Assembly (NCBI RefSeq): GCF_024330105.1
Contig: NZ_JANDHW010000003.1
Span: forward strand, 124,001 to 188,000
Origin: Coprobacter tertius
Lineage (GTDB): Bacteria; Bacteroidota; Bacteroidia; Bacteroidales; Coprobacteraceae
Direction of reading: 5' to 3'
DNA length: 64,000 nucleotides
Shown here: positions 45,971 through 62,604 of the stretch, piece after piece
Layout of the letters: each line of letters starts with the position of its first letter
How positions within the stretch are numbered: the first letter of the stretch is position 1
The notes under the pieces: model-generated
Databases searched by the model: none
Told to the model about the DNA's origin: nothing
What the model saw: only the letters and a program-made list of their open reading frames with translations
Made by a program: the position numbers and the translations under genes

Positions 45971-46055
45971 GGAGAGATGGCAGAGTGGTCGATCGCGACG
46001 GTCTTGAAAACCGCTGTACTGAGAGGTACCGGGGGTTCGAATCCCTCTCTCTCCG
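45971..46055 (+). tRNA. tRNA-Ser (anticodon UGA)
   Basis: 85 nt. The acceptor stem GGAGAGA/TCTCTCC closes with discriminator G. The anticodon loop CTTGAAA places TGA at 46005-46007. A long variable arm (type II) and the TTCGAAT T-loop fit serine. CCA is not encoded. The last bases form the integration site of the element downstream, and the gene is left intact. Confidence 0.95.
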
Positions 46056-46056
46056 C
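46034..46056 (+). repeat. Left att repeat (tRNA-Ser 3' end)
   Basis: GGTTCGA, three bases, then the 13-bp core CCTCTCTCTCCGC (46044-46056). The same arrangement recurs at 57253-57275 as a direct repeat, bounding the mobilizable element. Confidence 0.88.
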
Positions 46057-46382
46057 AACAAACGCTGAAAATCAGCAGATTGCAAAACAAACACCCAGTT
46101 TTACACCCAAGAATGTAAAGTCTGGTGTTTTTGTTTTATTTAAGATAATACAACCACTACATAATAAAAGAGTAGCGATATTAAAAGAATCCGATGAGAA
46201 AAGACTAATATTTATCTATCCATTCACTTTGATTTTTCAGGACTTTACATCGTCCTGAAAGTATTTGTTATTGTATTCCAACGTCAGGAGTGGATTATAA
46301 TACAAGTTTTTTGTGTGGATAGAATTTCGTTTTGCTTAATGTACGAAAGTACTTATCTATAAACGCATGAAATATTAGCACA
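46057..46382. other. Left-end non-coding region of the element
   Basis: 326 bp between the tRNA and the efflux gene. It holds an imperfect hairpin (AAACACC...GGTGTTT, about 46088-46129) that may terminate tRNA transcripts, and presumably the promoter of the resistance genes, which I could not place. No ORF in it looks real. Confidence 0.4.
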
Positions 46383-47588
46383 ATGAATCATTGGAAATCA
46401 ACTTTGGCCGTGATAGGAATAGGCCAACTCATATCTATTTTAACAAGTACGATTGTTGGCTTCTCCATTATTTTTTGGATTAGCAACGAATTTAAATCCC
46501 CGACAGCTTTATCTCTGGCTATTTTAGCTGGATTTTTACCACAATTTGTATTAGGCTTGTTTACCGGGGTCTATGTTGACAGATGGAATCGAAAGAAAAC
46601 GATGTTTTATTCGGACTTGTTCATCGCGTTCTGTACCCTATGTCTTTTTATTGTGATAACCAAGGGTTATAAAGACCTTTCTTTTTTTTATCTATTGACT
46701 GCTTGTCGTTCAATAGGCAGTACGTTTCATGCACCTGCTTTACAGGCAAGCATCCCTCTACTGGTTCCCAAGCACCATCTTGTCAGGGTATCAGGTTTGT
46801 ACCATTCCATTCAATCCTTCAGTGAGGTGATAGCTCCCGTTGTAGGGGCAAGCCTCGTTGTTTGGCTTCCCATACAGTATATTCTGCTCATAGATGTGAT
46901 CGGAGCTGTTGCTGCTTGTCTGACCTTACTTTGTGTCCAGATTCCTTCTCTTCAAAAAACGAAAGTTCTTCCAGATTTCAAAAAAGAACTGACGGAATGT
47001 TGGCATACCTTGCGGCGTACAATGGGCATTTTGCCTTTATTCGTATGCTTTACGCTGGTGACTTTTGTCCTTATGCCTGTTTTTACGTTATTTCCTTTTA
47101 TGACGCTTCTGCATTTCAACGGAAACATTTTGCAAATGGGAGTTGTGGAAATGGGTTGGGGCTCAGGGGCATTGTTGGGCGGTTTAGTACTTGCCTGTAA
47201 GGCTTTGAAAAGCAAGCAAACATTAGTGATGCATACGGCTTATGTGATATTGGGATTGTATCTGATTAGCGCCAGTTATTTACCATCAAGCGCATTTATA
47301 GGTTTTGTTTGCCTAACATTTACAGGAGGCATAGCCTATTCCATTTACCATGCGCTTTTCATCGCTATTATTCAGCAGAACTTGGCTTCGGACATGCTTG
47401 GACGGACTTTTTCTCTCATCTTTAGTTTGAGTACCTTTCCATCAATGCTGGGTATCGTAGCTTCAGGATATTGGGTGGAAGCATGGGGTATCACATCCGT
47501 CTTTATGATCAGCGGATGGGTTATCTTTCTGATTGGAGTGGGTGCAAATTTTATTTCTTCAATCAAGCAGTTGGATAATTACGCATAG
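46383..47588 (+). CDS. mef(En2): Macrolide efflux protein, Mef(En2)-like MFS transporter
   Basis: 401 residues with about twelve membrane helices. The MFS loop motif GVYVDRWNRKKTM lies between helices 2 and 3, as in Mef proteins that expel 14- and 15-membered macrolides by proton antiport. The length and the lnu neighbour match mef(En2) as described on NBU2. It is followed 24 bp later by the lincosamide gene, so the two are probably co-expressed. The frame is intact, so resistance is plausible but not shown. Confidence 0.88.
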   Translation: MNHWKSTLAVIGIGQLISILTSTIVGFSIIFWISNEFKSPTALSLAILAGFLPQFVLGLFTGVYVDRWNRKKTMFYSDLFIAFCTLCLFIVITKGYKDLSFFYLLTACRSIGSTFHAPALQASIPLLVPKHHLVRVSGLYHSIQSFSEVIAPVVGASLVVWLPIQYILLIDVIGAVAACLTLLCVQIPSLQKTKVLPDFKKELTECWHTLRRTMGILPLFVCFTLVTFVLMPVFTLFPFMTLLHFNGNILQMGVVEMGWGSGALLGGLVLACKALKSKQTLVMHTAYVILGLYLISASYLPSSAFIGFVCLTFTGGIAYSIYHALFIAIIQQNLASDMLGRTFSLIFSLSTFPSMLGIVASGYWVEAWGITSVFMISGWVIFLIGVGANFISSIKQLDNYA

Positions 47589-47612
47589 TATTATTTATTA
47601 AAGAATTATTAT

Positions 47613-48125
47613 ATGACAAAGAAAGAACACACTACGATTACAGAGTTATTTCAAGTTTTGGACTTGTTGGAAAGCCTGGACATGCAGTTTTGGTTGGATG
47701 GAGGCTGGGGAGTGGATGTCTTGTACGGACAGCAAACCCGCTTGCATAGAGATATTGACATTGATTTTGATGCCAATTATACAGACCAACTCCTTGGTCT
47801 TTTGCAGGAGAGAGGATATCAAATTGAAACAAATTGGTTGCCCACCCGTGTGGAACTGTATAGCAAAGAATTAGGCTATATTGATATCCATCCTTTTGTC
47901 TTGAATGCGGACGGCACTTCCAAACAAGCCGACTTGGATGGAGGCTGGTATGAATTTCAACCGGACTATTTTGGAACAGCAGTCTTTGAAGGCAGAAGCA
48001 TCCCTTGCATTTCTGCAAAAGGGCAACAAGTATTCCATTCGGGCTACGATTTAAGAGAGAAGGATATTCACGATTTATCTATAATTAAACAATGTATAAC
48101 AACAATGAGCCTAACAATTAGATAA
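47613..48125 (+). CDS. lnu(AN2): Lincosamide nucleotidyltransferase, Lnu(AN2)-like
   Basis: 170 residues. The nucleotidyltransferase fold shows WLDGGWGVDVLYG and the acidic motif HRDIDIDFD that binds the metal-nucleotide. The enzyme adds AMP to lincomycin or clindamycin. The length equals that of the LinAN2 protein of NBU2, and the order after mef is the same. The frame is uninterrupted. Confidence 0.9.
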   Translation: MTKKEHTTITELFQVLDLLESLDMQFWLDGGWGVDVLYGQQTRLHRDIDIDFDANYTDQLLGLLQERGYQIETNWLPTRVELYSKELGYIDIHPFVLNADGTSKQADLDGGWYEFQPDYFGTAVFEGRSIPCISAKGQQVFHSGYDLREKDIHDLSIIKQCITTMSLTIR

Positions 48126-48135
48126 GAACAAGAAA

Positions 48136-48501
48136 ATGACAGAAAAACAAATTGTCTGGTATATCTTACTTACAGAAGTAAAGATAGACAGTGACACCCA
48201 GTCTGTCACATCCCTGAGTGTAGCTCCATTGGCAGTCTTGCCGGAATTCCAGCGTAAGGGAATTGGGGGGGGGATGTTGATTCAGTAAGCCCATCAGAGG
48301 GCAGCACTTTTGGGTTACGGCACAGCAGTCGTATTGGGGCATAAAGAGTATTATCCTCGATTTGGCTATCGCAAGGCTATCGATTTAGGAATTGAATTTC
48401 CTTTCGAAGTCTCTCATGAATATTGCATGGTGGCTGAATTAATACCTGGAGCTACTGAGAATGTGAAAGGTATGGTTTGTTATCCAACTGACTTTAAATA
48501 G
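48136..48501 (+). pseudogene. GNAT acetyltransferase remnant with an in-frame stop
   Basis: One continuous reading frame from ATG 48136 gives acetyltransferase sequence on both sides of a single TAA (48286-48288). Before it stands VLPEFQRKGIGGGMLIQ, the acetyl-CoA loop; after it AHQRAALLGYGTAVVLGHKE then YYPRFGYRKA. No frame change is needed, so a single nonsense mutation broke it. The N-terminal half of the fold is also missing. It follows the lnu gene by 10 bp and is probably not functional. Confidence 0.85.
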
Positions 48502-48572
48502 TTTAACAAGTAAAATTCATTATATAACTCGGACTGGGTATTTCAATTTCCCAGTCCGTATTCTGATAGTAC

Positions 48573-48926
48573 TTATTCAATTGGAAGATTGTGTTGCTTC
48601 AAGAATGAAAGTTTATCCCAATACCCTCTTTGAAAGACGATTTTGTTATCTTTTACATGAAAAAATCCGCATCCACGAAGTCCAAGAGAGTCTTTCCATT
48701 CCATGATAGCCCATTCGCCATCTTCAAAAATATTTTCCACCATACAAACCATTTTAGCAGTGGCAAATTCATTCACAAACATTTTGTAGATTGATTCTTT
48801 ACCTATTATTGGTTCGTTTGCGACTTGATGATTTACTGCATTAGTAGCATACAGCTCTGCTATATGATAAGCATCTGCTTTGTTAAAGCAATCTATCCAT
48901 TTTTCCAAAACTTCTTTAGGCTTCAT
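48573..48926 (-). CDS. SnoaL/NTF2-like small protein
   Basis: 117 residues. The cone-shaped NTF2 fold is suggested by WIDCFNKADAYHIAELYA at the start and the ending GYWDKLSFLKQHNLP. Such proteins can be small isomerases, hydrolases or ligand binders. The substrate is unknown. The gene is oriented opposite to the resistance genes and is part of the cargo end of the element. Confidence 0.7.
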   Translation of the reverse strand: MKPKEVLEKWIDCFNKADAYHIAELYATNAVNHQVANEPIIGKESIYKMFVNEFATAKMVCMVENIFEDGEWAIMEWKDSLGLRGCGFFHVKDNKIVFQRGYWDKLSFLKQHNLPIE

Positions 48927-49014
48927 TTTTTATAAATTCTTAGGATTTTGATTCTGTAATAAAAACAATCTGTTTGGATGCATAGATACTTGATTTTATT
49001 AATAATAGGCTATT

Positions 49015-50418
49015 CTATATTCTAAATCCTCTGGATTTTTGCTCTCTCTGCACCGAGTTACGTAGATTCTGCTGTAACTTTTCCCATTGTTCCTTAAACC
49101 ATTGTACTATGGGTTGTCGGTTTATGGTCAGCATAAGCTTACCACTATCCATCGGATGTTTCTCAACCCTAAAAATATCATTCTTGATGTCAAATTTCCA
49201 CCTGTGTTCTTCGGAATAAATTTTGCCACTACATTGTATGGATTCTTTCTTTGTCAAGAGGTTTTCTATCATGTCTTTGGTAAACCCGATAACAGCGCAT
49301 AATTTTTCCATTCTCAACATCTCTTTGAACATGGGAAACCATTTGTGGGCTTTTTCAAGCAAGGTGCTCAATCGTGATATTTCCTTGTCTTTGGCTTCAA
49401 GTTCTTGATTATGTATTCTTTGAAGATTACGAATTTGTCTGCTATGCTGTTCCTGTATTTGTTGTATCTGAATTTTTAATTCATCAGTAGCTTTGTCCCG
49501 TTTGGTAATTTCCTGATGTAGCTGCTCGATGTGATGTTCCAGTTCTTTCAGCTTACCGCTTCCGAAAAGAGAACCTACACCGCTTGCTATGGCGGTAGCA
49601 GCATTGGTGGCTGTTTTCTTTAGTTTGTCCGTGCGTATCTCTGCTTTTACCTGTTTGAGTTCCTGTTCGGCAAGGCTTACTTGTTGTTCCTTGTGTCGCT
49701 TGGTTTCCTCTATACGTTGCAGTTCGGCTTTCTGCTTCTCTATGATAAAGTCGTTCCGTTCCAGATGTTCCTTGCCTGTTACAGCCTTTGATTGCCCACG
49801 CTCCATCAGCAGAATGTCGGATGCCAAGCTCTGCATTTCGGTCATATCCTCGTCATTGAGTTTGCGGCTCTTGCCTGTATCGTGATTCATCCAGTCGAAT
49901 ACGATATGGGCATGGTAATTCGGCTTGAACCACCTTTCGCCTACTTGGAAACTCTCCATGTCCTCCGGTGCAGGCTGACCGTTCAGCCAATGCCCCTCGT
50001 CCTTGTGCAGGAAGATTTGCAGCGGTGTAATGCCCCAGCGTTTTTGGCATTCTTCACCGAATTTACGCACATCTGTCAAAGTGGTGTCCGGCCTGATGAG
50101 CAATACTCCCTCACGGATGGGCGAACATCCCGCCACCTTGATAATCTTACCGTTCTTCCCTTTGCGTTTACGCTCCTTTTCCTGCATGGCACGGCCTGTC
50201 TTTTCCTTGACCATGCGCTTGATGTTCTCATAGTGCGCCTGCAATTCGAGATTGCCGAAATCGGAATTTATCCACTGTTCATTATCAGCTGTAAGTTCGG
50301 GCACGATGTAGATTTTGGACTTGCCGATGTTGCGCATATATTCGGCAGTCCTCCGGTTATGAGCCTCGCTTGATGTCACGTTGCAAGGCTTGATATGTAT
50401 GCTTGATTTTGTTGCCAT
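49015..50418 (-). CDS. MobV-type relaxase (Pre/Mob family)
   Basis: About 467 residues from ATG 50416-50418 (MATKSSIHIKPCN). The MobV motif I, NRR near the start, and the metal-binding NYHAHIVFDW near 185 are present. A long coiled coil (about 220-340) follows. It nicks oriT and leads DNA transfer when a helper conjugative element is present. An upstream ATG (50472) would add 18 residues, but family starts favour the shorter form. The hairpin-rich DNA before it is the likely oriT. Confidence 0.88.
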   Translation of the reverse strand: MATKSSIHIKPCNVTSSEAHNRRTAEYMRNIGKSKIYIVPELTADNEQWINSDFGNLELQAHYENIKRMVKEKTGRAMQEKERKRKGKNGKIIKVAGCSPIREGVLLIRPDTTLTDVRKFGEECQKRWGITPLQIFLHKDEGHWLNGQPAPEDMESFQVGERWFKPNYHAHIVFDWMNHDTGKSRKLNDEDMTEMQSLASDILLMERGQSKAVTGKEHLERNDFIIEKQKAELQRIEETKRHKEQQVSLAEQELKQVKAEIRTDKLKKTATNAATAIASGVGSLFGSGKLKELEHHIEQLHQEITKRDKATDELKIQIQQIQEQHSRQIRNLQRIHNQELEAKDKEISRLSTLLEKAHKWFPMFKEMLRMEKLCAVIGFTKDMIENLLTKKESIQCSGKIYSEEHRWKFDIKNDIFRVEKHPMDSGKLMLTINRQPIVQWFKEQWEKLQQNLRNSVQREQKSRGFRI

Positions 50419-50472
50419 CTTTTCAATTTTTAATTCGGTTATTACTAATTTTGTTTGCTGCTTTCCGCTCAT

Positions 50473-50641
50473 AACCGCAAGGGGTTCTTAGGGGCAACCC
50501 ATAAGCGGAGTTTCCAAAGAGAGGGTCACTCTTTGGTCGGGTTGCATAGGGCTGAAAGCCCTTGCCGGGTTCTTAGGGCAGCGTCCTAAGCCCCTCGGGA
50601 GAGCCCACAACTACGCAAGCGAAGCGTGTAGTTATAGTGGG
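50473..50641. other. Probable oriT region
   Basis: 169 bp between the relaxase and primase genes, dense in inverted repeats: CCAAAGAG/CTCTTTGG (50514-50536), GGGCT/AGCCC, CTTAGG/CCTAAG (about 50571-50590) and a larger imperfect hairpin GCCCACAACTAC/GTAGTTATAGTGGGC (about 50603-50642). Its GC content is higher than the surroundings. Position next to a MobV gene makes an origin of transfer likely; the nick site is not identified. Confidence 0.6.
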
Positions 50642-51598
50642 CTATAACCGGAAGCCTTTCGGTTTCTTGGATAACGTATCATTCCTCTTTCTGACGGATT
50701 GCATTTGCTCTTTTCCATCAGACATGCGCTTCTGCAAATACTCGTTCAGATCTTTGCATCCGCAGTAGATTTGGGAAGCGTCCCGTATATGCCGGATGCT
50801 GTCGTATTCCTTTCGGATTTGCTGCAAGGCTTCCATTCCTGCGCGGTCATTGTCAAAAAAGCAGTGGATGCGCTCATAGCTTCCCAACGGGTAGAGTGCC
50901 TTGGAAACATTGGCTACGGAGTTCAGCACCATGTAATCCTGCCTGTCGAAATCGGGGTATTGCGGGCAGCTTTCGAGCCGTAGGGTCAGAAAGGAAAGGT
51001 AGTCCATAAATCCCTCGAAAACGAAACAGGTGTTCTTCGGTTCTTGTTGCCGTATGTGTGTAATGTCTTTCGGAGCGATACACCCCTTAAAATATCGGTT
51101 GCGTATCTCATAGCCGCCCGATATGTTCGGAAACGCAATGGCGAAGTACTGCTTGTCGTTGTGCGTAAACCGAGCTTCCTTACATTCTCTTTTCGCCAGT
51201 GCCGGATTTATCCCCCTTTCCTGCAAGTAAGCGAGCAAGGCAGGAGAAGAAAGCGGCACGATTTCCAACTGTTGGAAACTCGGCTCCGTAAAGGACTGCT
51301 TGCGAAAAGAGAAAGAAACGGGGCGCACGTGCGGTGCCTGTTCCTCTATGCGTTTCAAAAGATACGGCACACTGTCCGTTGCATAGAGGTGCGAAGCCAG
51401 TGCGATGATGTTGCCGCCCTTGCCGAGTGCAAAATCATACCATTGGTTCCGCTCGGTATTCACCTTGAACGATGCTTCGGTTTCTTCCCTGAACGGCGAT
51501 TTGTACCAAAGATTGATGCCCTGCCGCTTCACCGGGCTATATCCCAAGCTGTGAAGATACTCTTCCAGCCTGATTTGTTTTGCTGTCTGTATATCCAT
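50642..51598 (-). CDS. Toprim DNA primase of the mobilizable element
   Basis: 318 residues. The N-terminal 100 resemble a CHC2-type primase finger domain that has lost its cysteines (KSPFREETEASFKVN, WYDFALGKGGNI). A Toprim domain follows with CFVFEGFMD (Glu) and HCFFDNDRAG (DxD), then KDLNEYL. It probably primes replication of the excised circle or the transferred strand. The relaxase lies downstream and the RepA-type gene upstream. Confidence 0.85.
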   Translation of the reverse strand: MDIQTAKQIRLEEYLHSLGYSPVKRQGINLWYKSPFREETEASFKVNTERNQWYDFALGKGGNIIALASHLYATDSVPYLLKRIEEQAPHVRPVSFSFRKQSFTEPSFQQLEIVPLSSPALLAYLQERGINPALAKRECKEARFTHNDKQYFAIAFPNISGGYEIRNRYFKGCIAPKDITHIRQQEPKNTCFVFEGFMDYLSFLTLRLESCPQYPDFDRQDYMVLNSVANVSKALYPLGSYERIHCFFDNDRAGMEALQQIRKEYDSIRHIRDASQIYCGCKDLNEYLQKRMSDGKEQMQSVRKRNDTLSKKPKGFRL

Positions 51599-51671
51599 AA
51601 ATGATTATCTTTATCGGTTATTGCTTGTTTTTCTTTTCGCCAGTACCTTTTCATATAGGTTACTGGTGTAT

Positions 51672-51792
51672 AACCACTTCACTTTATTGTCGTATATATA
51701 GGATACGGCTTAAAGTGAAGCGGTTTGATGCACTCCTGTAACCACTTCGCTTTATCCTAATATATAGACCCTGAGAATAAAGTGAAGTGATT
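51672..51792. repeat. Two long inverted-repeat pairs, possible origin or operator
   Basis: The same sequence occurs four times: AACCACTTCACTTTAT (51672-51687), its complement TAAAGTGAAGCGGTT (51711-51725), AACCACTTCGCTTTAT (51740-51755) and ATAAAGTGAAGTGATT (51777-51792). Units alternate in direction about 35-40 bp apart, making two hairpins or four protein sites. It lies between the RepA-like and primase genes. Confidence 0.7.
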
Positions 51793-51804
51793 GCGAGGAT
51801 TGGG

Positions 51805-52881
51805 CTAATAGTGGAAATCCGGTTCGTACCTGTACTTTCTGCCGTTTTCCTGCACTATCATCCGCTTGTTCTTTAACACTGTGATGAGTTTGACCAGCTT
51901 GTTGTCACTTAACGGAATGCCCACCAAGGCATACGACTCTTTCAGTGCTTTGCCCAGTTCCTTATATCCGTATTCGTCCTGTAACGAGAATGCGGCTTCC
52001 AGAGCTATCCGGTGCTGTTGCTCGGAAATGTCCTTGCAGGCATCAAACCTTTCACCTTGGGGTCTGCCGGGTGCTTTGGTTTCTGTCTGGTAGTTCTCCA
52101 TCAGTTCAGGCAATGCCCTGTCATTGATGCGGAAGGCAAACGGCTCGAAGTCCATCGCACGGATGTGCATGGCGGAAACCTTGCTTATGTCCCCGTTGCT
52201 CTTGTCCTTTTCAACGAGCAGCACGGTTTCAGCCTTGTTGTTCAGCTCCGTGCCGATATGTCCCCTCGCGTTCTCATCCCCCTTGTTCTGATGGAGTATC
52301 GTGTGGATATGTATCTGCCTGTCGTCCGTCCACTGCATCAGCTTTGATATGATGCGTGTCGATTCACTGGGGCTGTTGATGTCATATACCATGTCACGGA
52401 TGCCGTCTATTATCACCAGACCAAGGTTCGGCGTATGGTAGATTGCCTGTTCGACAATCCTTATGCGCTGCTCCGGCGTGTACTTCCGCAGGGCAAGGAA
52501 TTCAAGGTTTTCGTTGTCCCTGTCATCGGGCAGCCCTGCCATACGCATGATGCGCTCCATCACATTCAGGCAGTGGTGGGGGCTTTGCTCCGTATCCACA
52601 TAAAGCACTTTCCGTTTGGCTTCGGGAAGTTCAGCCGCATACCTGAGCACCGTGCCGTTTTTCAATGCCGCCGCCACGATAGCCGACACATTGAATGTCT
52701 TCTTGCTTTTGGCTTTGCCGATGGATGCGCTGAAATTTCCCAATGTGCCTATTACAGAACCTTTCACACTGAGGATTTCGGGGGCTTTCTCGTATTTTCC
52801 TGACAGGCTCAGCCGTGAGGCTTGCCAGAGGATTACCGCCTGTTCGTCCGATATTTCCCGGATGTCTTTCATATAGTCCAT
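51805..52881 (-). CDS. RepA-type RecA-fold ATPase (helicase-like)
   Basis: 358 residues. A P-loop variant GKAKSKKT lies near 47-54, Walker B-like LVIIDGIRDM near 155, and HTILHQNK near 197 is a sensor segment, as in RepA/DnaB-like hexameric ATPases. The C-terminal 70 residues look like a small winged helix. It probably drives replication of the excised element with the primase. The gene starts 14 bp after DUF3853. Confidence 0.8.
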   Translation of the reverse strand: MDYMKDIREISDEQAVILWQASRLSLSGKYEKAPEILSVKGSVIGTLGNFSASIGKAKSKKTFNVSAIVAAALKNGTVLRYAAELPEAKRKVLYVDTEQSPHHCLNVMERIMRMAGLPDDRDNENLEFLALRKYTPEQRIRIVEQAIYHTPNLGLVIIDGIRDMVYDINSPSESTRIISKLMQWTDDRQIHIHTILHQNKGDENARGHIGTELNNKAETVLLVEKDKSNGDISKVSAMHIRAMDFEPFAFRINDRALPELMENYQTETKAPGRPQGERFDACKDISEQQHRIALEAAFSLQDEYGYKELGKALKESYALVGIPLSDNKLVKLITVLKNKRMIVQENGRKYRYEPDFHY

Positions 52882-52895
52882 AGCGATTCCTCCCG

Positions 52896-53204
52896 TTATT
52901 TGCGTCCGCCTGTTTTCTTCCCTGCCAGTTCAAGGGCAAGTTCCGCATCCACGATAATCTTGCGCCCAATCTGGGTGATGGCCTTGTCTATCTTCCCGCT
53001 TTTCTTTATGCGGTTGGCGGTGGGCAGGCTGCACCCGAACAGTTTGGCTATGCCGAGTATGCCGTACACATATTTCCTGCTTGTGTCCGTTACGGGCTGC
53101 GGCTGCGTTTCCGGCTGACCGGATGCGTGCCTGCTTAACATTATAAACTCTTCGCCTGTCATCTGCCAGACGGGTTTGGATAATAATTCTTGGATATTTG
53201 TCAT
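52896..53204 (-). CDS. DUF3853-type helix-turn-helix protein
   Basis: 102 residues. The C-terminal segment YGILGIAKLFGCSLPTANR then KKSGKIDKAI is an excisionase/MerR-like winged helix of the DUF3853 family, common in Bacteroides mobile elements next to RepA-type genes. It likely binds DNA to control replication or excision. Confidence 0.82.
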   Translation of the reverse strand: MTNIQELLSKPVWQMTGEEFIMLSRHASGQPETQPQPVTDTSRKYVYGILGIAKLFGCSLPTANRIKKSGKIDKAITQIGRKIIVDAELALELAGKKTGGRK

Positions 53205-53359
53205 AGTCCAATCTAATTAGTCGTTAAACAATCAGCCCTGCGCACTGGCTGTTATTTCTGTTCTCGAACGATGCAAAATTAGATATGGATACGGGTGGTA
53301 AGGATGGGGATAATATAATCGAATATCGCTGTATCTTATTGAATATCAGAAAATAAAAA

Positions 53360-53387
53360 TACCACTCAAAAATGAATTTGAGTGGTA
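53360..53387 (-). terminator. Terminator after the 350-residue unknown gene
   Basis: Inverted repeat TACCACTCAAA / TTTGAGTGGTA with a 6-nt loop. On the minus strand a T-rich stretch (TTTTTATTTT) follows. It lies 40 bp past the stop at 53427. Confidence 0.82.
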
Positions 53388-53426
53388 AAAGTGGAACTTT
53401 CGTAAAGAATCAGGATATGTCACGGA

Positions 53427-54476
53427 TTATCTGAATATCTGCTCCATTTCTTTGGCGAAATTCTGGTTGCTGTCACTGGGGAAATCAGAAACGGGCTCTT
53501 TGTACTTGGACTTATAATAACCGTCATCAATATCCAGCAGTTTGAGCATTCCGGCTTTCCATTTGTCCCTGTCCTGTTTGGGGAGCTTTTCGCTCATGAG
53601 AAATATCAGATAACATACACGGATTTTCTCTCTCGGTTTGGTTTTCAGTTTGTAGTTGCAGGGTTGCAGGTTCATGTTGGCATAAAAATCCGGTGCGGAA
53701 ATTTCTTCAAACTGTTCTCCCACACATACTTCATGAATGAGCGAAAGTAATTTCATGCTGAAGTATTCGTGTTGTTCCGTTGTTGTTTCCTGCGGACTGA
53801 CTGGCTTTCTCGGTTCTTCCTGTCGGTTCCCGTCGGGAATATATTTCTTCAATATGTCCAAGAAAAGGCAGCTTTGACGGTATATGTCCGCACAACGGTT
53901 CTTCATATATTGGAATGCCTCCTTTCTTGCAGCCTTTTGCAGGTCATAGAGTTCGTTCAGTCTGGCTTTTTCCCTGTCGTATTCAGCCTTGCAGCGTTCA
54001 TATTCTTTCTCCGCCTGCTTTTCTTCTTCGGCTGTATGTTCCCTGTAACCGATGGAATCATACCTGTTGTTGGCTTCATTCAGCGGCTTGCTCAGACTTC
54101 TTGTGACATCCAGTTGGGCTTCAATTTCAAGGGAATACCTTTCCATGTGCTGATGGCAGACACGCTCTATGGCACTGTCACTTATGGGGTGCGTTTCATA
54201 AGCCTGTATGCTCTTTTCTATTTCGGTTTTCAGGCTGTTGAGTATCAGGGTGTATTGTTCTTTTTGCCTGTCAAGCACCAGTTCAAGGATGGCGGCTTCA
54301 AAAGACTTCATGTCATTGTACTGCTGACAGAAATCGGAAATAAATTTCTGCCTGTCAAAAGAGAAAACGTGATTGTCTATATAGTCCCTGTATATTCTGT
54401 AGAGTTCCCCGTATCGGGGAATCATCGTCTGTATATTGTCTGCCATAGGTGTCCTACTTTTGTCTGTTCTTTTCAT
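53427..54476 (-). CDS. Unknown protein with coiled coil
   Basis: About 349 residues from ATG 54474-54476; a TTG two codons upstream is less likely. A charged helical centre (about 160-200, EEEKQAEKEYERCKAEYDREK) suggests a coiled coil. I do not recognise a family. It overlaps the end of the DUF1016 gene by 23 bp, so the two are translated together and may form one functional unit. Confidence 0.65.
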   Translation of the reverse strand: MKRTDKSRTPMADNIQTMIPRYGELYRIYRDYIDNHVFSFDRQKFISDFCQQYNDMKSFEAAILELVLDRQKEQYTLILNSLKTEIEKSIQAYETHPISDSAIERVCHQHMERYSLEIEAQLDVTRSLSKPLNEANNRYDSIGYREHTAEEEKQAEKEYERCKAEYDREKARLNELYDLQKAARKEAFQYMKNRCADIYRQSCLFLDILKKYIPDGNRQEEPRKPVSPQETTTEQHEYFSMKLLSLIHEVCVGEQFEEISAPDFYANMNLQPCNYKLKTKPREKIRVCYLIFLMSEKLPKQDRDKWKAGMLKLLDIDDGYYKSKYKEPVSDFPSDSNQNFAKEMEQIFR

Positions 54477-55749
54477 TGTCAAGAAGCATCGTCAGTTCTT
54501 CCTCCACCTGTTCTATGCTCGGCAGTGCCGATTTCAGGTTTTCCGGCACAGCCTTGCTGAGCTGATAATCGCTGATGCCGATAGGCTGGTCATAGCCGGT
54601 CAGCGCATATTGTGCGACAATCTCATCCTTGCCCTTGCACAGCAGCAGCCCGATGGTCTTGTTGTCATTCTCTCCCCTCAGCTTGTCATCCACCACATTG
54701 ATGTAGAAGTTCAATTGCCCGGCATATTCCGGTTTGAACGGGGTGGCTTTCAGTTCCACGACCACGTATGCATGGAGTTTTATGTTGTACAGAATCAGGT
54801 CGGCATAGAAATCGCTGTCGCCAATCTGGAAATGCTTCTGCCTTGCGACAAAGGCGAATCCGCTGCCCATCTCCAGCAGATAGCGGGTGACGTGCTTCAC
54901 CAGTTGTTCCTCTATGTCCCTTTCGTCCGCCCGTTCTTTGGCTCCCGCCAAGTCAAAGATATACGGGTCTTTCAACAGGTAGTTGGCAAGGTCGCTTTGA
55001 GGTGCAGGAAGCGTGGCGGTAAAATTATTGACCTTGCGGCTGTTGATTTGCCGTTCAAACAATTTGCTTTCAATCTGCATTTTAAGGACGTTGCTGCTCC
55101 ATCCCATTTCCACGGATTGCTTCATATACCAATAATCGACACCTAATGGAAGTGAACTGTTCAGCAGAATCACATGGCTTGCCCAGTTGATTCTTGCGAC
55201 AGGTGATGCCAGGAACAGTTTTTCTATGTCCTCTATCGGTATTCGGCAAACGGTAGCTACTGTTTGGGCTACATCCTGAATTTGTGCAAGAGGTTCTTGC
55301 ACAATTGTAACTTCCTTGTTGTCAGAGGATGGAATTTGTGCAAGAGGCTCTTGCGTAAATGACACATTGTTCAGGCATTGGATTTCATCCGTGATTTTCT
55401 GCACACTTGGAGCAAGTATTTTCGCATCGGTTTCTATGAAACTCCGTAATGCGCCCAATGGATAGGAGCGTGCGAACTGGCACATATAAGCCAAGTTCCT
55501 GACCGAATATCCTTTCTTTTCGGGATAACTGAACCGTATTGCCTGCGCCAGTTTCTTGATGACCTTGCCGCCCCAGCCTTGTCGGTTCTGATGGTACAAT
55601 ATGTAATTGCCCATCTTCCAGTAGTGGAACAGCATCTGCGCATTGGCGGCACTGATGAGCCGGACTTGCGCCTGCTCTATTTCCGAGCCGATGGCATTGA
55701 CGAAAGCCTCGAAACTCCTTTTCTCTATGTTGTTATCGTTGTTGCTCAT
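54454..55749 (-). CDS. DUF1016 (YhcG-type) PD-(D/E)XK nuclease-like protein
   Basis: 431 residues. The N-terminal DUF1016 domain (about 15-110, with WKMGNYI and GWGGKVIKKLAQ) and the C-terminal nuclease-like domain with YADLILYN and VVVELKA (about 305-330) are both intact. Between them stands an unusual segment in which QEPLAQI occurs twice, 18 residues apart. The family is found on many mobile elements, with a suspected role in DNA processing or recombination. It is read with the following unknown gene. Confidence 0.82.
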   Translation of the reverse strand: MSNNDNNIEKRSFEAFVNAIGSEIEQAQVRLISAANAQMLFHYWKMGNYILYHQNRQGWGGKVIKKLAQAIRFSYPEKKGYSVRNLAYMCQFARSYPLGALRSFIETDAKILAPSVQKITDEIQCLNNVSFTQEPLAQIPSSDNKEVTIVQEPLAQIQDVAQTVATVCRIPIEDIEKLFLASPVARINWASHVILLNSSLPLGVDYWYMKQSVEMGWSSNVLKMQIESKLFERQINSRKVNNFTATLPAPQSDLANYLLKDPYIFDLAGAKERADERDIEEQLVKHVTRYLLEMGSGFAFVARQKHFQIGDSDFYADLILYNIKLHAYVVVELKATPFKPEYAGQLNFYINVVDDKLRGENDNKTIGLLLCKGKDEIVAQYALTGYDQPIGISDYQLSKAVPENLKSALPSIEQVEEELTMLLDNEKNRQK

Positions 55750-55819
55750 TGTTGTATGTATTGAAAGTCACAAAGATAAGCCCAATAACAGGCATCCCGT
55801 GAAACTTGCTGATTGTTTT

Positions 55820-57103
55820 TTATAGTTGGTTGAATTTGTTCATTGCATTTGCCTTGATGTCATCTGCGATGTCAATGTAAGGTTTCATGGCTTTATAATC
55901 GCTGTGTCCCGTCCATTTCATGACCACTTGTGCCGGGATACCGAGAGCCAAGGCGTTACAAATGAATGTCCTTCGTCCGGCATGGGTACTTAACAATGCG
56001 TACTTTGGCGTAACTTCATCTATACGTTCATTTCCTTTATAATATGTTTCCCTTACAGGCTCGTTGATTTCGGCAAGCTCGCCCAACTCTTTCAGATAAT
56101 CATTCATTTTCTGATTGCTGATGACTGGCAGTGCCATGTTGTTCTCAAAGTGAATGTCCTTGTATTTTTCAAGTATGGCTTTGCTGTATTTGTTCAGCTC
56201 TATGTTTAGGCTGTCCGCCGTTTTGACGGTAGTAACTTCTATGTGGTCGGATTTGATGTCACTTCGCTTCAAGTTACGGACATCTGAATATCTTAGACTC
56301 GTAAAGCAGCAGAACAAAAAAACATCCCTGACACGTTCCAGATATTGTTTGTCTTTGGGTATCTGATAGTCTTTCAGTCTATTCAATTCGTCCCATGTCA
56401 GAAAGATTACTTTCTTTGAGGTGGTTTTCAATTTCGGTTTGAATGTATCATATGCAATGTTTTGATTATATCCCTTTTTGAAGCTCCATCGCAGGAACCA
56501 TTTGAGAAATCCTATCTGTTTGCCGATGGTACTGTTTCTCATGTCTTTTTTGTCACGCAGGAAGTTTACATACTCGTTTAGCCCAAACTCATCGAAATAC
56601 TCAAAAGTCACATCTTCTTTGAACTCTTTCAGGTGATTTTTTACGGCTGCAAATTTTTCGTATGTAGATTCTGTCCAGTTGTTCTGATTGCCACATTCCT
56701 TGACAAACTCATCAAATATCTCCCAAAAACTTATTTTAGTATCTTCCTGTTGCTCCTCACTGTCATTTTTCATTCGCAGATTGAACGCATCTTTTAACTG
56801 TTGGGTGGTCGGCATGGTTTCCTGTACCTCAAATTCTTTGAACACGTTTTGAATTTCGGCATAGTATCTTAGCAAATCCGCATTGATTTCGGATGCGCTT
56901 TGCTTTAACTTATTGGTACATCCGTTCTTTACACGCTGCTTGTCTGCATCCCACTTGGCTACATCAATGCGGTAGCCGGTTGTAAACTCGATGCGGTGAC
57001 TTGCGTATATGACACGCATACGGATGGGAACGTTCTCCACGATTGGAACGCCGTTCTTTTTGCGGCTTTCAGGTGCAAAAATGATGTTTCGTTTGATGTT
57101 CAT
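55820..57103 (-). CDS. intN2: Tyrosine integrase of the NBU2-like element
   Basis: About 427 residues from ATG 57101-57103 (MNIKRNIIFAPESRKKNG). An N-terminal arm-binding domain, a SAM-like core-binding domain (about 130-210) and the catalytic domain follow, with FTSLRYSDVRNL (Arg), STHAGRRTF (His-x-x-Arg), WTGHS and Y in KPYIDIADD. It joins the circular element to the tRNA-Ser 3' end. The longer frame upstream runs through a TATATTTG box (57131-57138), so the shorter start is chosen. It lies about 160 bp from the right att copy. Confidence 0.92.
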   Translation of the reverse strand: MNIKRNIIFAPESRKKNGVPIVENVPIRMRVIYASHRIEFTTGYRIDVAKWDADKQRVKNGCTNKLKQSASEINADLLRYYAEIQNVFKEFEVQETMPTTQQLKDAFNLRMKNDSEEQQEDTKISFWEIFDEFVKECGNQNNWTESTYEKFAAVKNHLKEFKEDVTFEYFDEFGLNEYVNFLRDKKDMRNSTIGKQIGFLKWFLRWSFKKGYNQNIAYDTFKPKLKTTSKKVIFLTWDELNRLKDYQIPKDKQYLERVRDVFLFCCFTSLRYSDVRNLKRSDIKSDHIEVTTVKTADSLNIELNKYSKAILEKYKDIHFENNMALPVISNQKMNDYLKELGELAEINEPVRETYYKGNERIDEVTPKYALLSTHAGRRTFICNALALGIPAQVVMKWTGHSDYKAMKPYIDIADDIKANAMNKFNQL

Positions 57104-57252
57104 GACTGGGTGTATTTGAAATTCTGCACCCAAATATACACCCAAAAATTGAAATAGCGAGCGATATTCGATAATATTTAGATTTAATTATGATTGTAAT
57201 AAGCTGGTTATTAATAGGCATTTGCGATTGTGTGATATTTTGAGATAGTACA

Positions 57253-57275
57253 GGTTCGAGAGCCTCTCTCTCCGC
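57253..57275 (+). repeat. Right att repeat
   Basis: GGTTCGA, three bases (GAG), then the 13-bp core CCTCTCTCTCCGC at 57263-57275, identical to the core in tRNA-Ser. It marks the right end of the element. Confidence 0.88.
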
Positions 57276-59194: not shown

Positions 59195-59602
59195 CTACAA
59201 TTTAGACCCCGTAACTTCTATTCCTACTTTCTGCAAATCGGCCCGAACCATAGCCTTTACCGCGATGACTTCGGAAAGGTAGGCTTCGTATTCCGTTTTG
59301 TCCGTTTCGTCCGTCGATAGCCCAAGCACAAAAGCGTTATACTTGTTGATAAGGCTAAATTCTTCGGTTTCGTCCCGGCGGGAACGCAAAACGGCCTTTA
59401 CGCATTTGTCGTAATCCGGCCGGCCCCATACTTCCACCGTGTCGTAGTCGTACGCCTTCCTTGCGGCCGGGGCCTGTTCGCCTTCCTGTTCGGCCATAGG
59501 TTCCGGCTGTATTTCCACTTCGGTAATATTGTAGTTGTAATGCCAACTGCCGTTACCCAAGTCCTGCAAAATGGGCGGTCTATCGTTTGAATTTGATTTC
59601 AT
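59195..59602 (-). CDS. Small phage protein of unknown function
   Basis: 135 residues. The N-terminus (ILQDLGNGSWHYNYNI) and a C-terminal helical half are typical of a conserved unnamed protein in Bacteroides phage late regions, often near tail genes. No signal or membrane helix is seen. Its start overlaps the reverse transcriptase end by 23 bp, so translation is coupled to the DGR. Confidence 0.65.
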   Translation of the reverse strand: MKSNSNDRPPILQDLGNGSWHYNYNITEVEIQPEPMAEQEGEQAPAARKAYDYDTVEVWGRPDYDKCVKAVLRSRRDETEEFSLINKYNAFVLGLSTDETDKTEYEAYLSEVIAVKAMVRADLQKVGIEVTGSKL

Positions 59603-60590
59603 ACTTCGATGTTTTAGAAAGTTTCTTAATCAAGTGTTTGCTATCGCAAGACTTCGCCCAACCCCACCAAGGGCAAATAGCCTGCTTAAAGTCCTTTTCG
59701 GATAGTGGCCTTTTCCGCTTGTTAATTTTCGCCAACCGCCGGCAAAAGGTCTTTTTAATGCCCTTTCGCATTTTGGTATGCGTGTGGAAAAATACATATC
59801 CTACGAAGTCGATACCGCGAGCCGCTACGGGGAAAACTTGCCAGTTCCCTTTAACCTCTAATTTCAAGTCCCCCAAATACTCCCTAATTTCGCCCATTAA
59901 GGAATGAAGGTAGGCTTTGTCGGGCGCAAGTATTACAATATCGTCCGCATAGCGGAAGTAATATTTTACGCCTTTCTGCTCCTTTATCCAATGGTCGAAG
60001 TAGGTTAAATAAAGGTTAGCGAAATATTGGCTTAGATAATTTCCGATAGGTACGCCGTCCGCCGAATCTACAATTTCGTCAAGTAGGCGAAGTAGCCTTT
60101 TATCCTTCAACTTGCGGCGTAGAATGGATTTTAGCACGTCGTGGTTAATCGAAGGATAGAACTTGCGAATATCCAATTTCAAGCAGAACGTAGTACCTTC
60201 CGGGTCTTCCCGTAGGGCTTGTTTTACCTTCTTCGCGGCCGCATGAATCCCCCGGTTCTTAATGCAGCTATAAGTGTCCGCCGTGAAAGTCGAAACCCAT
60301 ATAGGCTCTAAGACGTTCATTATAGCGTGGTGCAAAATACGGTCGGGAAAGTAAGGCAAGCGGTATATTTCCCGTTCTTTGGGTTCGTAAATAGTGAATA
60401 CGTCGTACTTAGACGTATGGAAAGTACCGTTTAGCAAAATTTCGCGTAACTTCAATAGGTTTGCTTCCCTGTTTTTGTCGTGTTCTATAACTCCGTACGT
60501 GCGTAACTTACCCTTACGGGCCTTTTCGTCCGCAAGCTGCAAGTTCTCGATAGAACAAATCTTTTCGTACAAGTTACCTATTCGCTTCAT
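59580..60590 (-). CDS. DGR reverse transcriptase
   Basis: 336 residues. The reverse-transcriptase palm is complete: LKLDIRKFYPSI (first catalytic Asp at 140), GVPIGNYLSQYFANLYL (182-188 IGNYLSQ, the DGR-type motif in place of the intron-type QGxxxSP), and YADD at 214-217. No maturase or nuclease domain follows, as expected for DGR enzymes. It copies the template repeat RNA with errors at adenines. It lies directly downstream of the template repeat, within the VP-accessory-TR-RT order. Confidence 0.95.
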   Translation of the reverse strand: MKRIGNLYEKICSIENLQLADEKARKGKLRTYGVIEHDKNREANLLKLREILLNGTFHTSKYDVFTIYEPKEREIYRLPYFPDRILHHAIMNVLEPIWVSTFTADTYSCIKNRGIHAAAKKVKQALREDPEGTTFCLKLDIRKFYPSINHDVLKSILRRKLKDKRLLRLLDEIVDSADGVPIGNYLSQYFANLYLTYFDHWIKEQKGVKYYFRYADDIVILAPDKAYLHSLMGEIREYLGDLKLEVKGNWQVFPVAARGIDFVGYVFFHTHTKMRKGIKKTFCRRLAKINKRKRPLSEKDFKQAICPWWGWAKSCDSKHLIKKLSKTSKYEIKFKR

Positions 60591-60704
60591 TGCGTTACTC
60601 GTTTGCTGATTTCTTAGGGAACGTTCGGGAAGTCCTACTAATGCCCCTTAAATAGTTGTTGTTTTTTGCCAAGTGGCAAGGTTTTTACCCCCATAAAAAA
60701 AACT

Positions 60705-60817
60705 GCATAGCTGAGAGCCGATATTCGCATTCGTATTCGAAGCCGTGTTATTCGTATTCGCGTACGAAAAGCCGGCATTCGCGCTGTTATTCGCATTACC
60801 GCCGAAAAGCACGCCCC
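60705..60817 (-). repeat. DGR template repeat (TR)
   Basis: 113 bp that match the variable repeat at 61300-61412 without gaps. Of 28 adenines on the coding (minus) strand, 15 differ in the VR; none of the other 85 bases differ. Read in the VP frame, the TR is rich in AAT/AAC (Asn) codons, the usual DGR design, because mutation of both As reaches many amino acids. It starts 21 bp after the accessory ORF. A hairpin TTGCC/GGCAA (60666-60679) lies between it and the RT gene. Confidence 0.96.
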
Positions 60818-60838
60818 AAGGGTAAACCGCCTATAATT

Positions 60839-61180
60839 CTATTCGAAATAATACCTTGTACCCGAAGCCCGCATAGTTACTTTACGCGGAAAGGCGTTGC
60901 GCTCCTTAATCTTCCCAAGGATATATTTAATTTCCTGCGAATTGGTAAAGAACTTCCGCGCTTCATTATCCGGGTCTTCTCGGTTGAACTTAATCTTAAC
61001 CAAGAAGCGGTTATTTCCGAACTTCGTTTTAACGTCGTCCAAATAGTCTACAACCCAAAACGAAAGATTGATTAACTTTTGCTGGTTCGTTTCCGGGCAG
61101 TTGAAATGCTTGTTATTCGCGTCCGGCTCAATCTGCAAGAAAGCCAAACTTCCGTCGTCCTGTCTGTTGTTGTTTTCCAT
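60839..61180 (-). CDS. Small ORF in the DGR accessory position
   Basis: 113 residues. It lies between the target gene and the TR, where Avd-type accessory proteins are encoded. It does not look like the four-helix Avd: it has a mixed alpha/beta pattern (FLVKIKFNRED, then EIKYILGKIKERNAF and FPRKVTMRASGTRYYFE). It has no membrane part. It could be a different accessory class, a host-phage structural protein, or a DGR helper. Its role is not known. Confidence 0.6.
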   Translation of the reverse strand: MENNNRQDDGSLAFLQIEPDANNKHFNCPETNQQKLINLSFWVVDYLDDVKTKFGNNRFLVKIKFNREDPDNEARKFFTNSQEIKYILGKIKERNAFPRKVTMRASGTRYYFE

Positions 61181-61196
61181 TTTTGCGAAAAATTGA

Positions 61197-61242
61197 ACGG
61201 CGGGCGTTCGTCCTGATTTGGGCTAATTCGAAAGCCCGCCGT
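61197..61242. other. Long-loop inverted repeat downstream of the DGR target gene
   Basis: Perfect 9-bp arms ACGGCGGGC (61197-61205) and GCCCGCCGT (61234-61242), 28-nt loop, about 43 bp past the VP stop. DGRs can have a hairpin just after the VR that helps target recognition; this one could be that or a terminator. There is no T-run. Confidence 0.5.
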
Positions 61243-61284
61243 AGTTAAACCTTCTTTGTTAAATGCGTTCCGTTACGTGTCGTT

Positions 61285-62604
61285 TCAAGCGGGTAAAAAG
61301 CAAAGCCGAGAGCCGATATCCGCAGTCGTAGCCGAAGCCGCGTTAAGCGTATGCGCGTACGAAAAGCCGGCAAACGCGCCGTAATGCGCATTACCGCCGA
61401 AAAGCACGCCCCTTTGTCCGGTATTGCTTGCTACGTTCGTATAGAAGTAATCGGCGAAGTAAGTAGTAGAACTTGCGCCTACCTCTACCGGCATATTCTC
61501 GCCGTACTCGCCAATCATCATAATTTTAACGTAGCCTTCCTTTCGGGGTAACTCGCCGCGCTTTTCGTAATCGGTATAGTCGCTATCTTGGTACTTGGCC
61601 GGGTCGGTACATACGAAGAACTCACTAACGCCGCCAGCGTCCGCACTTTGAATATTGCACTTGCAGCCGTCCGTCCAACTCCATACGTGCCCGAAAGGAT
61701 TTTCCAAACCTCGGTAGCTGGGTACGCTAAGGGTTTGGGTATTCGTGCCGGCATCGTCTTTATTTACCGTATATTCTACTACGCCGGTCTTGTTTCCTAA
61801 CGCGTTAGTAACACCGCAAGGAATTACCGGGTAATACCCGAATAAATCCCAATTTGAAAGGTTGGTAACGCCTTGGCTTAATCCGCCCTGCTTATATCCT
61901 TCGCTCGTGGGTTCGGCGTTATAGGCAAGCTGGCAATTAAAGTTAGCGTATTCGACGGCATAAAGCCACCAACAAGTTTTTTGTACCTCGTAAACGTCGC
62001 AATTCCAACCTGCCCCGTTCTTGCCGGCATTACCTCGGTTACGTGCGTATGCCCGGAAATTGGTAAGGCTGATAACCGTAGCAGGCATACCTATAAGCGA
62101 CTTAAATGTACCGTCTTTGCTTGCGTCGTTGTTACCCCCTCGGAAAGCTGCGGAAGTGTTTACGACGCTTGCAAGTTTCGGCGTAGCCGATACGGTGCGG
62201 TCTACGGCTGCTTCATAAGCCGAACGATAGGCAAGCGGTACCAAGTGGAACCCCGGTAATGCGTGTTCAGAAAGAAGACAGCGAAATTTAGTACCGTCTA
62301 CTTCGAACTTGCGGTAGTGGGCCGGTATTTCTACCATTACCTGCCCGTCGGTACCGTCAAGTTTGGCAGCCGCCCCCGTATCGCGCTTGGTGCTGTCGTT
62401 CGCATGAAGGTAGTAAGCCACCGTTCCGTTATCGCGCAAGATACAACGGCGCATTTTACTTTGAATAGGCAGCGAAACGTGAAGTTCCGGGCGACCAATT
62501 CGGGTACAAGCCGAAGAAGCTACGTTAGAATCCCATTCTATACCGTAGTAGTAATCGTAGGGAAACGTCGGCTTCGTGTTTCCTACTCCAATCAATAAAC
62601 CCAT
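61285..62604 (-). CDS. DGR-diversified tail-associated protein, C-type-lectin-like
   Basis: 439 residues from ATG 62602-62604 (MGLLIGVGNTKPTFP); a TTG 10 codons upstream is less likely. The C-terminal 250 residues have features of the formylglycine-enzyme/C-type-lectin-like domain, with FGHVWSWTDGC near 325 and the ending GSRLC. The VR lies in the last 41 residues, at the ligand-binding face of that fold. In phages such proteins bind the host surface, so variation would change adsorption. It lies between two small phage ORFs. Confidence 0.9.
   Translation of the reverse strand: MGLLIGVGNTKPTFPYDYYYGIEWDSNVASSACTRIGRPELHVSLPIQSKMRRCILRDNGTVAYYLHANDSTKRDTGAAAKLDGTDGQVMVEIPAHYRKFEVDGTKFRCLLSEHALPGFHLVPLAYRSAYEAAVDRTVSATPKLASVVNTSAAFRGGNNDASKDGTFKSLIGMPATVISLTNFRAYARNRGNAGKNGAGWNCDVYEVQKTCWWLYAVEYANFNCQLAYNAEPTSEGYKQGGLSQGVTNLSNWDLFGYYPVIPCGVTNALGNKTGVVEYTVNKDDAGTNTQTLSVPSYRGLENPFGHVWSWTDGCKCNIQSADAGGVSEFFVCTDPAKYQDSDYTDYEKRGELPRKEGYVKIMMIGEYGENMPVEVGASSTTYFADYFYTNVASNTGQRGVLFGGNAHYGAFAGFSYAHTLNAASATTADIGSRLCFLPA
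61300..61412 (-). repeat. DGR variable repeat (VR)
   Basis: 113 bp covering VP residues 399-435, just before the C-terminus. The 15 differences from the TR change 11 residues (407, 408, 409, 411, 418, 420, 422, 425, 427, 429, 433) and leave one silent change at 434. Changes include Asn to His, Tyr, Phe, Leu, Ala, Thr and Asp. Confidence 0.96.

Follow-up and report, generated by a model that had tools for sequence, protein, structure and literature searches.

The stretch of DNA analyzed here, 64,000 nucleotides of a Coprobacter tertius contig and hereafter the window, contains within a prophage a cassette of features on the minus strand. Read from its open reading frames and repeats in the 5′-to-3′ direction, the cassette consists of a target gene, a 113-aa ORF, a template repeat (TR), and a reverse transcriptase (RT) gene, with a first variable repeat (VR1) in the target gene and a putative structured RNA in the spacer between TR and RT (Table 1). 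This order agrees with that given in a preliminary description of the locus. Immediately downstream of the RT gene, at 59195-59602, lies a gene for a 135-aa protein (phrog_11557), and small ORFs of one similarity cluster are found downstream of the RT in the loci of 99 relatives. The surrounding prophage is about 47 kb long and is located at a tRNA-Ser gene, with capsid, portal, terminase, tape-measure, and tail genes through segments L002-L003. The repeat CCTCTCTCTCCGC is found at three points, namely, the 3′ end of the tRNA-Ser gene (46044), position 57263, and L004:12661 (C3:228661); we therefore read the region as a tandem array at tRNA-Ser, in which a mobilizable element is followed by the prophage.

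Table 1. Features of the retroelement cassette, its remote target, and the surrounding mobile elements (positions without a prefix are those of the window)
Feature	Position	Strand	Description
Primary target gene	61285-62604	-	439 aa, phage tail-type protein with VR at C terminus; phrog_5302 tail protein, 7e-133; family conserved in relatives
VR1	61300-61412	-	IMH at 3′ end; 15 TR mismatches, all at A, 13 of them outside the IMH
Accessory ORF	60839-61180	-	113 aa, phrog_19665 family; not recognizably Avd; predicted beta-rich, OB-like
TR	60705-60817	-	28 adenines; IMH* at 3′ end (positions 106 and 110); would serve VR1 and a second VR outside the window
Spacer RNA between TR and RT	60599-60683	-	Rfam RT-17 (RF03020), 42.2 bits (gathering 40.4), E = 5.5e-6
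DGR reverse transcriptase	59580-60590	-	336 aa; Pfam RVT_1, 1.4e-17; phrog_1423, 4e-134
VR2	G000:C3:219309-219387	-	Outside the window, 34.7 kb beyond RT; 79 bp similar to TR
Target 2 gene	L004:3228-3761	Same as cassette	177 aa; phrog_11581; VR2 in C-terminal part
Prophage tyrosine integrase	L004:11209-12519		Far end of prophage
tRNA-Ser	45971-46056		3′ end repeated at both prophage borders
Mobilizable element adjoining prophage	46044-57275		Relaxase-like gene, primase-like gene, own tyrosine integrase
Tyrosine integrase of mobilizable element	55820-57145		Not the phage integrase
Mef(En2)	46383-47588		In mobilizable element; above NCBIfam cutoff
Lnu(AN2)	47613-48125		In mobilizable element; above NCBIfam cutoff

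Apart from the RT, nothing in the genome matches RVT_1. The enzyme displays both of the motifs previously claimed for it, IGNYLSQ and YADD, which are instances of the (I/V/L)GxxxSQ and YxDD motifs of the lineage of RTs found in diversity-generating retroelements (DGRs). The preliminary description had proposed an alignment of the RT as a check on its type. The closest solved structure is 8ub7 (E = 1.2e-48), which we take to be the DGR RT of Bordetella phage BPP-1, far ahead of a group II intron RT (2.6e-18), with other matches weaker still. That the enzyme is instead a retron, group II intron, or defense RT standing by coincidence next to a pair of repeats draws on NCBIfam models for group II and defense (Drt) RTs, all of which match only far below their cutoffs; given the distance between the two structural matches and the existence of the TR/VR pair, we reject these readings as practically out of the question.

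The TR and VR1, each 113 bp, align without gaps at the coordinates first proposed, and their similarity stops at once beyond the repeat on both sides. A recount of the mismatches returned the 15 that had been claimed, affecting 15 of the 28 TR adenines and none of the 85 other bases (hypergeometric P = 2e-11), so that the pair differs solely at TR adenines. The exact TR sequence occurs a single time in the 3.3-Mb genome, and VR1 ends 12 bp before the stop codon of the target gene. The 3′ motif AGCTATGC is common to 31 distinct TR/VR pairs of relatives, and in every one of these pairs the VR has G in place of the motif's first A and T in place of its second, while the adenines upstream of these two positions take all four bases. 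Since both changes are fixed, they represent differences between IMH* and IMH and not evidence of mutagenesis. Their counterparts in the window are TR positions 106 (A, with G in the VR) and 110 (A, with T in the VR), and therefore 13 mismatches, not 15, count toward mutagenesis. With the IMH sites removed, 13 of 26 adenines are changed (P = 3e-10); the mutagenesis signature originally reported from all 15 thus stands on these 13. The VR accordingly lies at the 3′ end of its target gene and carries an IMH that differs from the IMH* of the TR. By our computation, the 26 mutable adenines fall in 16 codons and give access to about 2e15 protein variants; none of the possible changes creates a stop codon. 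BPP-1 has a hairpin directly after its VR; a conserved counterpart was sought in the window and in relatives and was not found. A 9-bp GC-rich stem located about 60 bp downstream of the VR is restricted to the window and its closest relatives, and by this position and distribution it looks like a terminator.

The same pattern extends to the relatives of the RT, of which we collected 160 from genomes and viral contigs. In 137 of them, the RT is adjacent to two repeats, 45 bp or longer, that differ at three or more sites and only at adenines; among the others are contigs that stop near the RT. Across 160 pairs of at least 70 bp, substitutions at A yield G in 1,210 cases, T in 903, and C in 516. 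The nearest relatives, L005 and L085, encode RTs 97 and 96% identical to that of the window within the same cassette. Comparing VRs between related genomes, as had been suggested at the outset, places the differences at TR adenines: the VRs of L005 and L085 differ from that of the window at 15 and 14 of 113 sites, 14 and 13 of which are TR adenines, against four and three differences in the TR. Taking the window, L005, and L085 together, we observe 14 to 15 VR differences, at most one of them off TR adenines, alongside changes at one to four TR sites and in 3 to 5% of the RT. The body of the tail gene differs by about 11% in the comparison with L005 and L085, so that overall divergence in the VR is not much higher; what sets the VR apart from the gene body in near relatives is the location of the changes and not their amount. 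No such RT was found in the four other genomes of the same genus that were examined. Several MAGs carrying this Bacteroidota-type DGR phage are labeled as Clostridia (L005, L025, L026, and L043), for which mis-binning is the likeliest explanation.

The small ORF was correctly located in the preliminary description. An identity as Avd is unsupported by any test made. A protein of the phrog_19665 family is encoded upstream of the TR in 44 relatives, and in other relatives related proteins follow the RT, in several chromosomal DGRs starting 8 bases past the RT match. A profile of the upstream group recovers 66 loci, and single linkage at 1e-5 joins 141. In profile comparisons, the upstream group resembles a Flavobacteria-type group (E = 4e-4 over 90 columns), which in turn resembles a Bacteroides-type group (9e-15); a direct profile link between the upstream and Bacteroides-type groups was not supported. 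When 42 family members were compared with Pfam, no match to an S23/Avd-type model emerged, and a search of solved structures returned nothing significant, with no Avd among the matches. The predicted model (pLDDT, 89) shows a beta-beta-beta-alpha-beta-beta arrangement with one long helix and not a four-helix bundle; its top Foldseek hits are rich in OB folds, including SSB, and are not significant (best E = 0.32; TM, 0.26 to 0.37). On profiles, structure search, and predicted fold together, we reject Avd as its identity. The best reading is that the protein stands in for Avd, possibly via nucleic acid binding, and the family is common beside the RT in many Bacteroidota DGRs while having no name in Pfam.

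In addition, the spacer between TR and RT is conserved in the alignment of relatives, and a match to RT-17 was also obtained in 5 of 12 relatives tested. The Rfam match suggests that the TR transcript likely includes this described class of structured RNA. A literature search for RT-17 under that name found no paper.

Used as a query against the remaining prophage (L002-L004) and the entire genome, the TR found exactly one further site, VR2. The 79 bp of VR2 differ from the TR at 13 positions, 12 of them at A and one a T-to-G change (P = 6.5e-8), and its 3′ end point is identical to that of VR1. The gene that contains it, target 2, lies within a series of early genes, which encode a metallo-beta-lactamase-fold protein, an SMC/RecN-type ATPase, an IstB/DnaC-type ATPase, and a DUF2303-like protein; a gene for a C5 cytosine methylase is located about 3.5 kb away. 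The metallo-beta-lactamase-fold gene (L004:4172-4909) matches the model for the anti-Pycsar protein Apyc1 at 7e-4, far below the cutoff. Both target proteins share a C-terminal GSRLCF-type motif, so some similarity between them is expected, and VR2 could in principle reflect chance or a duplicated C-terminal domain of common ancestry instead of a DGR target. We regard this as very improbable, since nucleotide identity to the TR stops at the boundary of the TR/VR1 repeat, 12 of the 13 mismatches fall at adenines, the same pattern recurs in relatives with TRs of their own, and the differences between the relatives L208 and L213 fall solely inside the remote VR. In about 18 records an off-cassette copy matches the record's own TR with 6 to 18 adenine changes and 0 to 3 others, and in the 17 records with both on one contig, the remote VR lies 11 to 41 kb from the RT. 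Full-length or long relatives of target 2 were found in about 30 of the 49 records tested, and both targets are conserved in relatives.

Close pairs of phages provide the strongest contrast between the remote VR and its surroundings. L208 and L213 differ at 15 of 86 positions inside the remote VR and at none of 1,214 flanking bases; for L215 and L217, the counts are 15 of 85 inside and 5 of 1,215 outside. Relative to the TR carried by the phage of L208, these remote VRs have 14 to 18 of 25 adenines changed and no other base. In L208 and L213, the recent variation is confined to the remote VR. Such differences between near-identical phages, at adenines of their own TR, indicate that the remote target is in all likelihood live in relatives. 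The target 2 family also appears as the adjacent target in nonphage DGRs of Flavobacterium, Elizabethkingia, Pedobacter, and others.

Outside the IMH, VR1 and VR2 carry four identical substitutions among the seven sites changed in both. Gene conversion between the two was considered on this basis and rejected, as four of seven is compatible with chance. A C-type lectin or Ig-like fold was sought in both targets, and neither gave a sequence match to solved structures; for target 2, the predicted model had no Foldseek match and the phage collection no full-length match.

At IMH position 106, VR2 retains the TR-type A, whereas all 13 of the relatives' remote VRs that contain the motif have G. Together with the T-to-G change, this suggests that in this strain the activity of VR2 may be reduced. 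The same two observations are what would favor a cassette that has ceased to work in this lineage, with its VRs as frozen products of past retrohoming. We consider this unlikely: the RT frame is intact and very similar to that of relatives, the TR and spacer RNA are conserved, VR1 shows no change at any base other than A, and near relatives carry different VRs. To judge from these features, the DGR is probably active in this strain.

The cassette is thus a complete DGR in a prophage, as the preliminary description had it, and both the RT match and the adenine pattern uphold the DGR assignment. That reading was incomplete in that it missed the remote second target, the RT-17 match of the spacer, and the non-Avd family of the small ORF, and counted the two fixed IMH differences as mutagenesis. 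We are highly confident that the locus represents the DGR of a temperate tailed phage, in which one TR serves both a tail target and a remote nontail target. In the proposed mechanism, the RT would reverse transcribe the TR and the RT-17 spacer RNA with misincorporation at adenines, probably assisted by the accessory protein. Homing would start at the 3′ IMH, and the mutated cDNA would replace VR1 at the C terminus of the tail protein; we propose that the TR is not overwritten because IMH and IMH* differ by two fixed bases. The same TR would supply VR2, in the C-terminal part of a small nontail protein encoded in the early (replication/recombination) region. Adenine specificity is observed at both VRs, as is the IMH/IMH* asymmetry between TR and VR. 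Target 1 would be expected to bind host receptors, and target 2 presumably acts inside the infected cell.

Altering phage tails is the textbook role of DGRs. Here, one template also diversifies a small nontail gene, whose place in the genome is conserved among many related prophages and which shows signs of recent change in nature; what a phage gains by randomizing a presumably intracellular protein becomes a testable question in a defined gene family. A second testable point is the possible replacement of Avd by an accessory family that is common beside this RT lineage and unnamed in Pfam. The cassette shares with the BPP-1 DGR (brt, avd, and mtd) the homology of its RT (8ub7), the adenine-only changes between TR and VR, a tail-protein target with a C-terminal VR, and the asymmetry of IMH and IMH*. 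It differs from that system in its accessory protein, which is not a recognizable Avd, in its second target 35 kb away, and in having no conserved hairpin directly behind the VR.

Two-target DGRs of gut phages have already been published, and the prophage adds a well-supported case from another type of phage. Quimbyvirus, a Bacteroides temperate phage of about 75 kb with a frameshifted RT, has one VR near tail genes and a distal one in a likely nonstructural gene near methyltransferases (Benler 2021, PMC8008677). The arrangement of VRs is alike in the two; the present phage is of a different type, however, with its RT in one frame, a genome of about 47 kb, and target 2 located among replication/recombination genes on the strand of the cassette. 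One adjacent and one distant target gene are likewise present in the Bacuni phages of Bacteroides uniformis, where the targets are Fib_succ_major/DUF1566 proteins (PMC8143477), in contrast to target 2, which lacks a full-length counterpart in the phage collection. The Hankyphage, a Bacteroides temperate siphovirus, has a DGR whose 117-bp repeats differ at 14 adenines and which includes a small Avd-like ORF; it moves by Mu-like transposition and diversifies one target of 2,200 residues (PMC6199706), whereas we observe a tyrosine integrase, a tRNA-Ser site, and two short targets. Among inducible gut prophages, four species carry an additional VR at a distance from the RT cassette and near counterdefense genes, e.g., a DNA methyltransferase (PMC12629997), a likeness to our prophage that is drawn from their description. 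Remote nonstructural targets have been proposed to act in phage-host conflict (PMC8143477, PMC8008677, and PMC12629997). A broader generalization is conceivable, though we hold it to be doubtful: a conserved class of Bacteroidota temperate phages may use one DGR to diversify not only the tail protein that binds the host but also a small early protein that acts inside the cell in conflict with host defenses or rival phages, with a non-Avd nucleic acid-binding accessory replacing Avd throughout the RT lineage.

Finally, elsewhere in the prophage, a head-morphogenesis protein (L003:5876-7570; phrog_16625) contains a C-terminal ADP-ribosyltransferase-like domain (Pfam ART, 1.5e-5).
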